Below, piece by piece: positions 1 through 15,515 of a DNA stretch of 64,000 bases. The DNA comes from Flavobacteriales bacterium (lineage in GTDB: Bacteria > Bacteroidota > Bacteroidia > Flavobacteriales_D > Crocinitomicaceae). The stretch covers positions 62,001 to 126,000 of the forward strand of contig JADFAL010000061.1 of NCBI GenBank assembly GCA_015665275.1. Reading direction: 5' to 3'. The notes beneath the pieces were generated by a model. It was not told the origin of the DNA, searched no databases, and saw nothing but the letters and a program-made list of their open reading frames with translations. The translations under genes and the position numbers were made by a program. The stretch's first letter is position 1; each line of letters starts with the position of its first letter.

Positions 1-217
1 TGTCTTCTATTGAACGAATCACATCAAACCCGGTTCCGTCCGGCATCTGAATATCTATAAATACAATGTCAGGCTGGTGATTTTCGATGGCAGCGATTGC
101 CGATTGCACGTTTTCTCCTTCCGGAATTGTTTCTACGTCGTATCCAAAAGAGTCGATCATTTTGGCGATCAATTCTCGCGTTCTGTTCTCATCATCGATA
201 ATCAGTACCTTCTTCAT
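1..217 (-). CDS. LytR/AlgR-type response regulator, receiver domain (partial)
   Basis: The gene starts with ATG at 217 and runs off the left edge, so only the first 72 residues are visible. They form the start of a CheY-like receiver domain. The acidic pair sits at residues 8-9 (VLIIDDE), and the likely phosphoacceptor aspartate lies in the strand IVFIDIQMPDG. The histidine kinase ends only 27 bases upstream on the same strand, so the two form one operon and a cognate pair. In Bacteroidota such receivers next to LytS-type kinases usually carry a C-terminal LytTR DNA-binding domain; that part is outside the window, so the output domain is inferred. Confidence 0.85.
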   Translation of the reverse strand, partial: MKKVLIIDDENRTRELIAKMIDSFGYDVETIPEGENVQSAIAAIENHQPDIVFIDIQMPDGTGFDVIRSIED

Positions 218-9931: not shown

Positions 9932-9985
9932 CGTTTAATTTGGCACAGCCTTTGTATTATTCCGGTAACGGTTAAAATGTTAGTG

Positions 9986-12127: not shown

Positions 12128-13924
12128 CTAGTCATTCAATTTTAAAACTGCCAAGAATGCTTCCTGCGGAATTTCAACTTTTCCTACCTGACGCATTCTT
12201 TTCTTACCAGCTTTCTGCTTTTCGAGAAGTTTACGCTTTCGTGAAATATCACCACCGTAACATTTCGCGGTTACGTCTTTACGCAGGGCTTTGATCGTTT
12301 CACGCGCGATTACCTTGGCTCCAATTGCTGCCTGAATAGGAATTTCGAATTGTTGGCGTGGGATCAACTCCTTCAACTTGATACAAATTCTCTTACCCAA
12401 ATCGAAGGCATTGCTGCGGTGAACGAGTGCAGAAAGTGCATCGACTTGCTCGCCATTGAGAAGCAAGTCCATTTTGATCAAATCTGATTTCTTATATCCA
12501 ATTGGATGGTAATCGAACGAGGCGTAACCACGAGAAACGGTTTTCAATCGATCGTAGAAATCAAATACGATTTCACCCATTGGCATTTCGAAACTCAATT
12601 CTACTCGGTCTTGCGTCAAATAAACCTGATTGGTCAATTCACCGCGCTTCTCGATACATAAGGTCATTATTTGACCAACATATTCCGATTTCGTAATGAC
12701 TTGTGCCTTGATATATGGCTCTTCGATCATTTCCATTCCAGATGGATCTGGCAATTCCGAAGGGTTGTTTACGATCAGTGCCTGTTCTGGCGTTTTTTTC
12801 ATGTATGCCTTGTAGGATACGTTCGGAACCGTCGTAATTACGGTCATCCCGAATTCGCGCTCCAAGCGTTCCTGGATTATCTCCATGTGCAACATCCCAA
12901 GGAATCCACAACGGAATCCAAATCCGAGTGCTGCGGAAGATTCTGGCTCAAACACCAAAGAGGAATCGTTCAATTGCAATTTCTCCATGGAGTAACGCAA
13001 TTCTTCGTAATCTTCTGTGTCTACTGGGTAGATACCGGAGAATACCATTGGTTTTACATCTTCAAATCCTTGAATGGCAGTCGGGCATGGGTTGTCTAAA
13101 AGCGTAATTGTGTCTCCCACTTTTACTTCAGCGGCCTTCTTTATTCCAGAGATGATATACCCAACATCACCAGCACGCACTTCCTTTTGTGGACTCAGGT
13201 CCATTTTTAAGACGCCTATTTCTTCAGCACCGTAGCTTTTCCCTGTGTTGAAAAATTTGACTTTATCTCCTTTACGAATCACGCCGTTTTTCACGCGGTA
13301 ATACGCAATAATACCTCGAAAAGAATTAAAAACAGAATCAAAAATCATGGCTTCTAGAGGAGCATCTTCGTCTCCTTCCGGCGCTGGAATACGATTGATT
13401 ACAGCATCTAAAATTTTATCTACACCCAAACCTGTTTTACCGGATGCAGGGATTACGTCATCTGGGCTACAGCCAATTAATTCAACAATTTGATCGGTAA
13501 CTTCCTCGGGCATAGCACCTGGAAGGTCCATTTTGTTTAGGATTGGAATGATCTCAAGATCGTGTTCCAAGGCTAGATATAAATTGGAAATGGTTTGTGC
13601 TTCAATTCCTTGAGCAGCATCTACAATTAACAAGGCTCCTTCACAAGCCGCTATTGAACGTGACACTTCGTAGGAGAAATCCACATGTCCAGGAGTATCA
13701 ATAAGATTCAATATGTACTCTTCTCCCTCGTGGGTGTAGTTCATTTGAATTGCGTGGCTTTTGATAGTGATCCCACGTTCACGCTCCAAATCCATATCGT
13801 CCAATGCTTGATTTTGCATTTCACGGTCAGAAATGGTTCCGGTTGTTTGAAGCAATCGATCGGCCAAAGTGCTTTTACCGTGGTCGATGTGTGCGATAAT
13901 ACAAAAGTTGCGAATGTTCTTCAT
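12128..13924 (-). CDS. lepA: Elongation factor 4 (LepA) GTPase
   Basis: A 598-residue translational GTPase, the normal LepA length. G1 is AHIDHGKST (residues 11-19). G2/G3 include [10 protein letters not shown] and DTPGHVDF, and G4 is NKMDLPGA. LepA-specific C-terminal features are [12 protein letters not shown] and the basic end [22 protein letters not shown]4 acts on ribosomes, affecting back-translocation and 30S assembly or initiation. The start is supported by a -7 box (TACTTTTG, minus strand) at 13956-13963, about 32 bases upstream. The gene is intact. Confidence 0.97.
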
Positions 13925-14065: not shown

Positions 14066-14292
14066 TATAAACAATGAACGGGAAAGACTAGCGTCCTTCC
14101 CGTTCAATACCTAAACTACTACTACTTATGAAAACTAACTTCTACTTAGTTGATAAGAGTAATTCAAATCCCGTGCCAAAAAGTTATGCGCGCATTAAAA
14201 TGTTGTTTATTAGTGGATTGGTGAAGGTTGTTTGTAAAGCAGGTCTTGGCTGCTTTTTTCAAGTTATAAAAATGGATGGATTTAAATTTTGA
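14066..14292 (+). ncRNA. Hairpin-leader module, unit 1
   Basis: Order of parts: TATAAA (14066-14071), 4 nt, a 30-nt palindrome (14076-14105; GAACGGGAA pairs with TTCCCGTTC, then an A/C mismatch, then GAC/GTC closing loop TAGC). A 22-nt unstructured linker with CCTAAACTACTACTACTT follows, then ATG at 14128. The ATG opens a 54-codon frame beginning MKTNFYLV and ending at TGA 14290-14292. The first ~24 coding bases and the linker are almost identical in all three units, while the 3' halves differ. Selection therefore seems to act on the RNA leader rather than on the whole peptide. Whether it is a structured RNA, a leader peptide or both is unresolved. Confidence 0.6.
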
Positions 14293-14324
14293 AAGGCCAA
14301 TCTGCTCGATACGGATCGTTAGCA

Positions 14325-14488
14325 TGTAAAAGTAGAAAGGGAGAGGCTGGCGCCTCTCCCTTTCAAAACCTAAACTACTACTACTTATGAAAACTAACTT
14401 TTACTTAGTTGCTAGTTACAGTTCAAATTGTATGCCAATTATGTTACTGCTTTTCGCAACCGTATCGTTACTTATACAACGAAGGTAG
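14325..14488 (+). ncRNA. Hairpin-leader module, unit 2
   Basis: TGTAAA (14325-14330) and 4 nt precede a perfect 13-bp stem, GAAAGGGAGAGGC with its complement, around the loop TGGC (14335-14364). The 22-nt linker differs from unit 1 at one base. ATG 14387 opens a 33-codon frame, MKTNFYLVASYSSN to QRR, ending at TAG 14486-14488. Relative to unit 1 the stem has paired changes on both arms (CGGG to AGGG with CCCG to CCCT; AA to AG with TT to CT), which is covariation supporting a real RNA hairpin. Confidence 0.62.
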
Positions 14489-14625
14489 GGACTCTTTATT
14501 ATGTACGCATTGTTTTTAACTTTTTTTTAGCATCATTTTGTGGTGAGTGGCGTGAGGAAAGTATAAGCGTAGTTAAGAGACGTTAATGACGCGAAATAAA
14601 TTACTCTTTCGTTTTGTATTTGAAG

Positions 14626-14657
14626 TCCTCCCACTTTGGAGGAGCTGGGGGGAGGGG
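14626..14657 (+). repeat. REP-like GC-rich element, intergenic copy 2
   Basis: TCCTCCCACTTTGGAGGA is followed by GCTGGGGGGAGGGG. It is the same family as 3455-3485 but a degenerate copy. It ends 37 bases before the TATAAA box of hairpin unit 3. Confidence 0.65.
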
Positions 14658-14694
14658 CCTGCTATTTTCTCCACTCTGACTGATCCACCATTTT

Positions 14695-14906
14695 TATAAA
14701 TGAAGAAAGGGAGAGACTGGCGTCCCTCCCTTTCAATACCTAAACTACTACTACTTATGAAAACTAACTTCTACTTAGTTGTTGATTACAGTTCAAATCG
14801 TGTGCCAATTTTTTCTGTTTCTACAACCGTATCGTTACTTATAAGAACGCGCATTGCTCTAATAAATTACATGCTTAATTGGTTTTTAACATATTTTCTC
14901 AATTGA
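14695..14906 (+). ncRNA. Hairpin-leader module, unit 3
   Basis: TATAAA (14695-14700), 4 nt, then a 30-nt palindrome (14705-14734) with stem GAAAGGGAG / CTCCCTTTC, one A/C mismatch and GAC/GTC closing the loop TGGC. The 22-nt linker is identical to unit 1. ATG 14757 opens a 49-codon frame beginning MKTNFYLVVDYSSN and ending at TGA 14904-14906, hydrophobic in its second half. Units 2 and 3 also share a stretch CCGTATCGTTACTTATA farther downstream. From 14907 to 15185 no gene or element was recognised. Confidence 0.62.
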
Positions 14907-15185
14907 TAATCAAAAGGATACGCGATTTGAACGAAATGGATGAGGTGGTAACTAATTGATATTCAAGGAAATTCTTTTTAGAATATCTAATTATGCACGC
15001 ACATGAAAAATCAATAAAATTTCCCCAAAATATTTAATCGAACAATACAGAGGTGACCTTTTGAATTTGACGTTGATGATTCGGTGCTACGAATCCATTT
15101 TCAATTTGATAAAGAAGTCTGTCAAAATGCATATAAAAACGCCAATGTGACACGCTATAATTCTGACGTTTTGTCGATTCCGACC

Positions 15186-15515
15186 TTACTTTCTTCGTGA
15201 ACGTTTGACAATTAGTATGGTCACAATAACCATTAAAAGGCCAGGAATGAGCCACGAGCCAATTTGGTAGCCAACTTTGTAACCTACACTCTCTTTGTCA
15301 ACGTCGTCCTCCTTTGACTTGTTCGGCTTCACCACTGGAGAATCCAATTCTTGTCCTGCAATCGAATCGGTAATTGTATCCGAAATAATTGAATCAGATT
15401 CAAGCGCAACAGCCGGTTGGAAAGTGTCGTTTGCTGGCAATTGTTTAGGTATTGTTCGAGAAAACCCAAAATTTATCCAGAAAAGGAATGTAAGTACAAG
15501 AAGAAATCGAAACAT
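15186..15515 (-). CDS. Small membrane protein, unknown function
   Basis: The ATG at 15515 gives a signal peptide or first helix (MFRFLLVLTFLFWINFGFS). A 12-codon upstream extension would lack sense as an export signal. A polar, acidic middle (SDSIISDTITDSIAG, KPNKSKEDDVDKES) and a C-terminal hydrophobic helix (SWLIPGLLMVIVTILIV) follow, ending in the basic tail KRSRRK. About 109 residues. The layout suggests an inner-membrane protein with an exposed periplasmic segment. It is divergent from dinB, with only 46 bases between the starts. No family was recognised. Confidence 0.65.
   Translation of the reverse strand: MFRFLLVLTFLFWINFGFSRTIPKQLPANDTFQPAVALESDSIISDTITDSIAGQELDSPVVKPNKSKEDDVDKESVGYKVGYQIGSWLIPGLLMVIVTILIVKRSRRK

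Follow-up and report, generated by a model that had tools for sequence, protein, structure and literature searches.

Three repeated units lying upstream of the lepA gene look like tandem sRNA genes read from the minus strand, each predicted to give a transcript of about 87 nt and each provided with its own promoter-like box and terminator. They were found in a 64-kb stretch of Flavobacteriales DNA (hereafter the window). The units belong to a new sRNA family that occurs in tandem copies, and the strand and anatomy of the family are firmly established from the sequence. The explanation that we favour, and regard as probable, is that these minus-strand genes are driven by a sigma54-type promoter, end at an intrinsic terminator, and yield sRNAs that prevent the initiation of translation, secreted proteins being the candidate targets.

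On the plus strand, direct reading and a repeat finder placed TATAAA, TGTAAA and TATAAA at 14066, 14325 and 14695, each 4 nt ahead of a 30-nt palindrome (14076-14105, 14335-14364 and 14705-14734 in units 1, 2 and 3). Each palindrome is followed by 22 nt containing CCTAAACTACTACTACTT and then by ATGAAAACTAACTT, at 14128, 14387 and 14757. The 25-mer CTAAACTACTACTACTTATGAAAAC occurs three times in the window, against a mean of 0.00 in 100 shuffles. The coordinates, spacings and three-unit layout reported in the initial annotation were therefore right. Conservation reaches beyond the eight codons that it had marked, since TTCAAATNNNRTGCCAA recurs at 14163-14179, 14422-14438 and 14792-14808. From the end of lepA (13924) to the ORF at 15186, the only ORFs of 80 aa or more overlap lepA. 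A DNA search of the window's own genome matched the three units and no further copies. On the minus strand, the predicted 87-nt RNAs extend from 14152 to about 14066 for copy 1, and over 14325..14411 and 14695..14781 for copies 2 and 3. All three are matched by R1, a covariance model built from 66 sequences (E values of 6.9e-17, 7.3e-17 and 6.1e-17, respectively), whose alignment also includes these copies. In transcript order, copy 1 is predicted to consist of a 5′ CAACUAAGUAGAAGUUAG, the core UUUUCAUAAGUAGUAGUAGUUUAGG, the terminator hairpin and a T-tract.

The aligned copies indicate which strand is read. At least 5 T within some 6-nt window after the hairpin are present on the minus strand in 53 of 65 aligned copies and on the plus strand in none of the 65, one of the 66 aligned rows having been dropped for its short end. 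Read on the minus strand, the wobble cells of the stem are G-U in 107 cases and A-C in 16. Folded as single sequences, the three minus RNAs reached -28.3, -31.9 and -27.5 kcal/mol, and the plus stretches -19.4, -26.6 and -19.0 kcal/mol; these values are supporting only, as the minus sequences are longer (87-88 versus 76 nt) and both strands beat their shuffles. The assignment of the minus strand and of the terminator is firm. Because the units are read on this strand, the apparent TATAAA box is the complement of the terminator T-tract, and what looked like a start codon is complementary to a CAU of the RNA. The initial annotation had chosen the plus strand, with the TATAAA box as promoter and the hairpin as a 5′ leader. 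The T-tracts and the wobbles, mostly valid on the minus strand, reverse this orientation and place the hairpin at the 3′ end.

In copies 1, 2 and 3 the palindromes thus form the terminator hairpins of the minus strand and are followed by ATTGTTTATA, TACTTTTACA and TTCATTTATA, respectively. On the RNA strand, a stable hairpin at the 3′ end with a U-tract behind it is the arrangement of an intrinsic terminator. Over the 66 aligned copies, the hairpin changes on both sides at 14 of 14 pairs, which bears out the covariation of the stem arms noticed from the three units alone. Pairing holds in 93.5% of stem cells, whereas shuffles give 73.2% and sliding yields no more than 61.0%; double-changed cells number 247 compared to 68.8 in shuffles. 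None of 500 shuffles reached the observed pairing or the observed number of double changes. The loop, mostly GCCA or GCCC, varies less than the stem.

The core of the RNA, UUUCAUAAGUAGUAGU, is nearly invariant, and its sequence is the antisense of a translation start (ACUACUACUUAUGAAA). It occupies 14110..14134 in copy 1 (TTTTCATAAGTAGTAGTAGTTTAGG), where it is antisense to an AUG start site, and 14369..14393 and 14739..14763 in copies 2 and 3, all on the minus strand. Ahead of the loop hairpin, TTTCATA and AGTAGT make up 13 invariant columns out of 104 in the 66 copies, an invariance inflated by the gathering of the copies with a related core motif (4 differences allowed). The letters of the hairpin vary freely. 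Single-sequence folds leave most, but not all, of the core unpaired. The conserved sequence lies outside the hairpin, could act as a seed and is a candidate for pairing.

On the minus strand, TTGGCACRNNNTTTGAA stands upstream of the predicted RNA. The segments that recur at one fixed distance upstream of the three copies resemble the -24/-12 element of sigma54 promoters: TTGGCACGGGATTTGAA at 14163..14179 matches 14 of 14 scored positions and lies 32 nt before CATAAG, while TTGGCATACAATTTGAA (14422..14438) and TTGGCACACGATTTGAA (14792..14808) match 12 and 13 of 14 positions at the same distance. We scanned 123 distinct copies for which 220 nt upstream were available. A box scoring at least 11 of 14 was present in 73 of them, whereas 20 shuffles averaged 0.4 and never exceeded 2; the other 50 have no good box. 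In the 33 copies of the modal distance class, the TTGGCAC and TTTGA islands hardly vary, the spacer holds little information, and the sequence becomes conserved again at CAACTAAG, the place expected for a sigma54 +1. Under standard sigma54 numbering, with +1 counted 11 nt downstream of the -12 box, all three copies would start at the C of CAACTAAG (14152, 14411 and 14781). A sigma54 promoter classically has a GG and a GC separated by 10 bp. At the -12 position, 61 of the 73 boxes have GA and 4 the classical GC, the GG and the -24/-12 spacing being present in 73 of 123 copies. Some distant copies have TTTGC- (L090, TTGGTACATTATTTGCA). Among 13 box-like sites collected from two 400-kb stretches and the window, the three described here included, the letter at this position is A in 8, C in 2, T in 2 and G in 1. 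A further candidate sigma54 site, TTGGCACAGCCTTTGTA, was noticed at 9940-9956 (plus strand) of the window, 20 nt ahead of the ATG of a secreted-looking 266-aa frame.

The window's own genome gave one RpoN match and ten PF00158 matches, three of them strong, so that it encodes both RpoN and enhancer-binding proteins, as expected for a sigma54 promoter. The presence of rpoN was uninformative as a co-occurrence test, because nearly all genomes of the family carry it (195 of 200 have the RpoN domain). Among the clustered neighbours of the sRNA copies, with 30 single neighbours set aside, no gene could be recognised as an activator. Candidate activator sites are provided by TGCNNGCA dyads, located at 14186..14195 upstream of copy 1 (ATGCGCGCAT) and at 14993..15002 upstream of copy 3 (ATGCACGCAC), with no strand assigned. 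Such dyads lie upstream of 22 of the 123 copies, compared to a mean of 2.95 in 20 shuffles. In box-bearing copies, 21 dyads start 14-139 nt before the box, with groups at 21-25 nt (9 dyads) and 136-139 nt (6 dyads) that are perhaps partly due to descent. Taken together, sigma54 control of the sRNA copies is likely. In each of five loci (L031, L033, L056, L064 and L085) one copy has no sigma54 box; several of these have, upstream, a distal block that resembles a promoter as well as a GCGTATTACATATAACAATACGC-like dyad, and may represent a differently regulated leading copy.

The initial annotation had named a lack of homologues outside this locus as an outcome that would refute it, and this outcome did not occur. 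By DNA search, 107 of the 200 genomes sampled from the family carry matches, as do 13 of 24 genera and 30 of 34 genomes of the same genus, the window's own genome counted. In GTDB genomes, an exact 24-mer was located in 55 stretches, many of them from records titled Fluviicola, Crocinitomicaceae or Flavobacteriales. With R1, 164 of 399 sampled genomes of the order matched at E <= 0.01, each with 1 to 9 matches, weak ones included. At E < 1e-8 the matches fall in 14 genera of the family, apart from one contig that is probably a contaminant (G228). In a sample of the phylum, 22 of 395 genomes matched, none better than E 1.1e-4 outside the window's own genome, and these weak matches were taken for ordinary terminators. 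Strong matches are thus confined to one family, by record titles the Crocinitomicaceae. Whether the units belong to an already named RNA motif, a caveat of the initial annotation, was checked against Rfam 15: no match rose above its gathering score in the window, and on six loci all 17 matches were below theirs. No publication was recognised as describing this RNA in a literature search that covered open-licence papers only. The 22-mer AAACTACTACTACTTATGAAAA had no exact match in viral contigs, which is a weak test of phage origin.

Several records deserve separate mention. Contig G228:C127 (L167), from a genome of another family, carries two copies, contains the same stretch as L085 and has a lepA 86% identical to that of the window; it is likely to be contamination. 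The sRNA is also carried by records titled Glaciecola (L079, CP034120, Glaciecola amylolytica), Chryseobacterium, Chitinophaga or Actinomyces (L079, L075, L083 and L050). L079, L075 and L083 correspond to G096, G029 and G082 of the window's family, and their record labels look wrong. A second, related RNA lies beside the main one in Fluviicola-type loci (L034, L035, L038, L067, L079, L081 and L090); it has the core ATAAGTAGTAGTAGTTAGGTTTAG and a terminator, without the preceding CAT and without a good sigma54 box. In the window's own genome, a weak R1 match at G000:C45:9053-9118 (L214; E 0.0047), reading GTAGTTTAGGTATAGAGAGTG...CACTCTCTCTTTTTT, may be a fourth, divergent relative.

The search for targets suggests, from complementarity, a pairing of the core at the starts of secreted-protein messages; statistically this is modestly supported, and several of the control comparisons came out negative. 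Long core complements showed no excess in the window's own genome (6 versus 5 in the control), nor did core complements outside the sRNA copies of the 34 genus genomes (24 versus 70 for the pattern read backwards). From the 24 near-matches to CTACTACTTATGAAA outside sRNA copies in these 34 genomes, 20 were fetched, and 12 of the 20 start ORFs of at least 60 aa. All 12 have a signal peptide or lipoprotein look, judged by eye, and 3 of 6 complements in the window's own genome are at gene starts that look secreted. Most MK (AUG-AAA) starts, 63 of 93, belong to secreted proteins in any case, so that 12 secreted-looking starts out of 12 are only mildly unusual.

Duplex energies were then compared with those of cores shuffled outside their AUG-pairing part, for 372 genes from G052 and the window, gene calls and classes being set by simple script rules. 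A control with fully shuffled cores (0/60 shuffles) was set aside: it had lost the AUG complement, and secreted and cytosolic genes both beat it. Over all 372 genes there was no excess of pairing at or below -14 kcal/mol (29 SP genes versus 27.4 with shuffled cores). At or below -21 kcal/mol, the extreme tail of the distribution is marginal, with 4 genes versus 2.05 and 19 of 150 shuffles reaching this number. With the tail alone upstream of the AUG, secreted genes averaged -6.12 versus -6.38 in shuffles, 75 of 80 shuffles being as strong or stronger; three secreted genes nonetheless reached -14, a number that none of the 80 shuffles matched. Genes with a type IX-like tail, classed by a simple motif that we assume to mark such tails (23 of the 372), pair better than other secreted genes (p 0.004). 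The difference was -2.58 observed and -1.82 with shuffled cores, so that most of it is also present with shuffled cores, and 5 of 150 shuffles reached the observed value. The comparison was repeated in a second species, G175 (16 of 321 genes), with the statistic fixed beforehand, and gave -1.48 versus -0.74, reached by 3 of 150 shuffles. The plain mean of the type IX-tail genes was reached by 7 of 150 shuffles in G052 plus the window and by 19 of 150 in G175, a moderate effect. No gene of G175 attained -21, and its top two hits are outside the secreted class. The second-best hit in G052 has a type IX-like tail (PNPSNG) that the rule missed. Finally, one surface protein that was a hit in two species was followed across the genus: over its 26 start sites, 0 of 300 shuffles did as well as the core. 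When the four start sites that had suggested it were removed, the mean was -13.9 versus -12.3 (22 usable start sites from 24 loci), reached by 3 of 498 shuffles, which is no clean probability for this single set of related orthologues.

These results have to be weighed against other explanations. The initial annotation proposed a plus-strand structured leader with a conserved start codon, acting as a leader peptide or a portable initiation cassette. Indeed, ATGAAAACTAACTT is kept in all three copies, and the frame stays open for at least 30 codons in 27 of 123 copies (22%), compared to 12% in shuffled sequence. However, the plus-strand ATG frame (ATGAAAAC) is not kept. In 42 of 123 copies a stop comes within 10 codons, copies such as ATGAAAACTAACCTCTAA end at once, and the distance from box to core is spread over all three frames (41, 25 and 7 of 73 copies). 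The plus strand also lacks the T-tract, and the stem wobbles would be A-C mismatches on it. Neither the defined start codon with its micro-frame nor the initiation cassette is supported, a coding or leader-peptide reading is rejected on the frame, T-tract and wobble tests, and the plus-strand leader as a whole is extremely improbable. What stands is a structured, covarying, multi-copy RNA family found far beyond the locus, a small-RNA family being among the options that had been named. A second possibility is a cis-acting attenuator or leader of lepA, in which RNA is made upstream of lepA and the terminator controls read-through. The next gene downstream of the units on the same strand, at 12128..13924 (minus), is one that we take from its protein sequence to be lepA (EF4), and lepA follows in the same orientation in 68 of 125 distinct copies and in 33 of the 55 GTDB loci. 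Against this, 45 of the remaining copies show no lepA within 600-1500 nt and 6 none within at least 1500 nt (6 are too short), and among the GTDB loci 11 show none in at least 2 kb (11 are too short), so that the units are not always in a lepA leader. A leader for lepA only is therefore unlikely. Several tandem copies, each with its own box and terminator, also fit poorly with attenuation, as does the separate TACTTTTG (TAnnTTTG) box that the window's lepA carries some 35 nt ahead of its ATG; we consider the attenuator quite improbable. In ten loci, Fluviicola records among them, the divergent upstream gene resembles what we take to be metF.

Two further alternatives accept a minus-strand sRNA. 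Its transcription may depend on a distal promoter and the primary sigma factor, in which case TTGGCAC-TTTGAA would be an RNA element. A distal block, GTTAA[AT]-13..24-TAAT with variants, is indeed found upstream of 41 of 123 copies compared to 2.8 on average in shuffles, both with the box (25 of 73) and without it (16 of 50). But this block is absent from 48 of the 73 box-bearing copies, and the box consists of two conserved islands spaced like -24/-12 and followed by an unconserved spacer, which makes transcription from a distal promoter unlikely. Alternatively, the sRNA may bind a protein, as a decoy or sponge, through its GUAGUAGUAG repeats or its mostly GCCA/GCCC loop, with no pairing to mRNA. 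The short repeats, a loop less variable than the stem, multi-copy arrays suited to titration and the absent or weak genome-wide enrichment of pairing all agree with such a role. Yet CAU, antisense to AUG, is part of the conserved stretch, and the core beats shuffled cores on the type IX-tail genes of two genomes and on one orthologue set. We therefore rate protein binding as rather improbable.

In the sRNA mechanism that we favour, each unit would comprise, on the minus strand, a sigma54-type promoter, an RNA of about 87 nt and an intrinsic terminator. Sigma54-bound RNA polymerase, acting with an enhancer-binding protein encoded in the genome, would transcribe the copies together, and copy number would set the dose of sRNA. 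The core UUUUCAUAAGUAGUAGUAGUUUAGG, predicted to be largely single-stranded, would pair around the AUG of messages of the form CUAAAC...ACUUAUGAAAA and block ribosome entry. The AUG-AAA shape of such targets is typical of signal-peptide genes, and the most likely targets would be secreted and surface proteins, the cargo of type IX secretion first. Translation-blocking of secreted proteins by these sRNAs is plausible on this evidence.

To our knowledge, the sRNA biology of Bacteroidota comes mainly from Bacteroides and a few Flavobacteriaceae. In Vibrio, the Hfq-dependent Qrr sRNAs, under LuxO-type control, are several near-identical, sigma54-dependent RNAs per genome that act together. The present family resembles them in its several near-identical copies and its candidate sigma54 control, but it belongs to another phylum and has another sequence. 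It is possible, though we hold this only tentatively, that a Qrr-like module evolved separately in Bacteroidota, with tandem, dosage-amplified, sigma54-driven anti-start-codon sRNAs forming the noncoding, repressing arm of an envelope or type IX secretion response. The FopS/GibS sRNAs of Bacteroides are also multi-copy paralogues, of about 65-70 nt; FopS are reported to pair beside the start codon and block translation of SusC-like outer-membrane proteins, and to have canonical sigma-ABfr promoters (PMC11697453). Multiple copies are common to both Bacteroidota families, and start-codon pairing, reported for FopS, is a candidate feature here. Unlike FopS, the copies described here are tandem with sigma54-like boxes, and R1 gave no strong match in the 395-genome phylum sample outside the window's own genome. 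For Flavobacterium psychrophilum, the sRNA Rfp36 is listed with a sigma54 (SM4) promoter, and the -24/-12 motif heads chaperone, envelope and gliding genes as well as one listed sRNA (PMC9723704). Rfp36 is likewise a Bacteroidota sRNA under a -24/-12 promoter, which is sigma54-like in our family. The F. psychrophilum genome also has three PF00158 proteins (PMC9723704), like the window's own genome with its three strong matches.

The locus is a clear case of an antisense core taken for a start codon. It reveals an sRNA family that is well conserved in another lineage of Bacteroidota, numbers 123 distinct copies in the examined set and has no match in Rfam; its strand, promoter, terminator and candidate seed can be given at single-base precision. 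Should both sigma54 control and the proposed targets be borne out, the family would provide a noncoding arm for the sigma54 regulon of the phylum, which could dampen the synthesis of secreted proteins.
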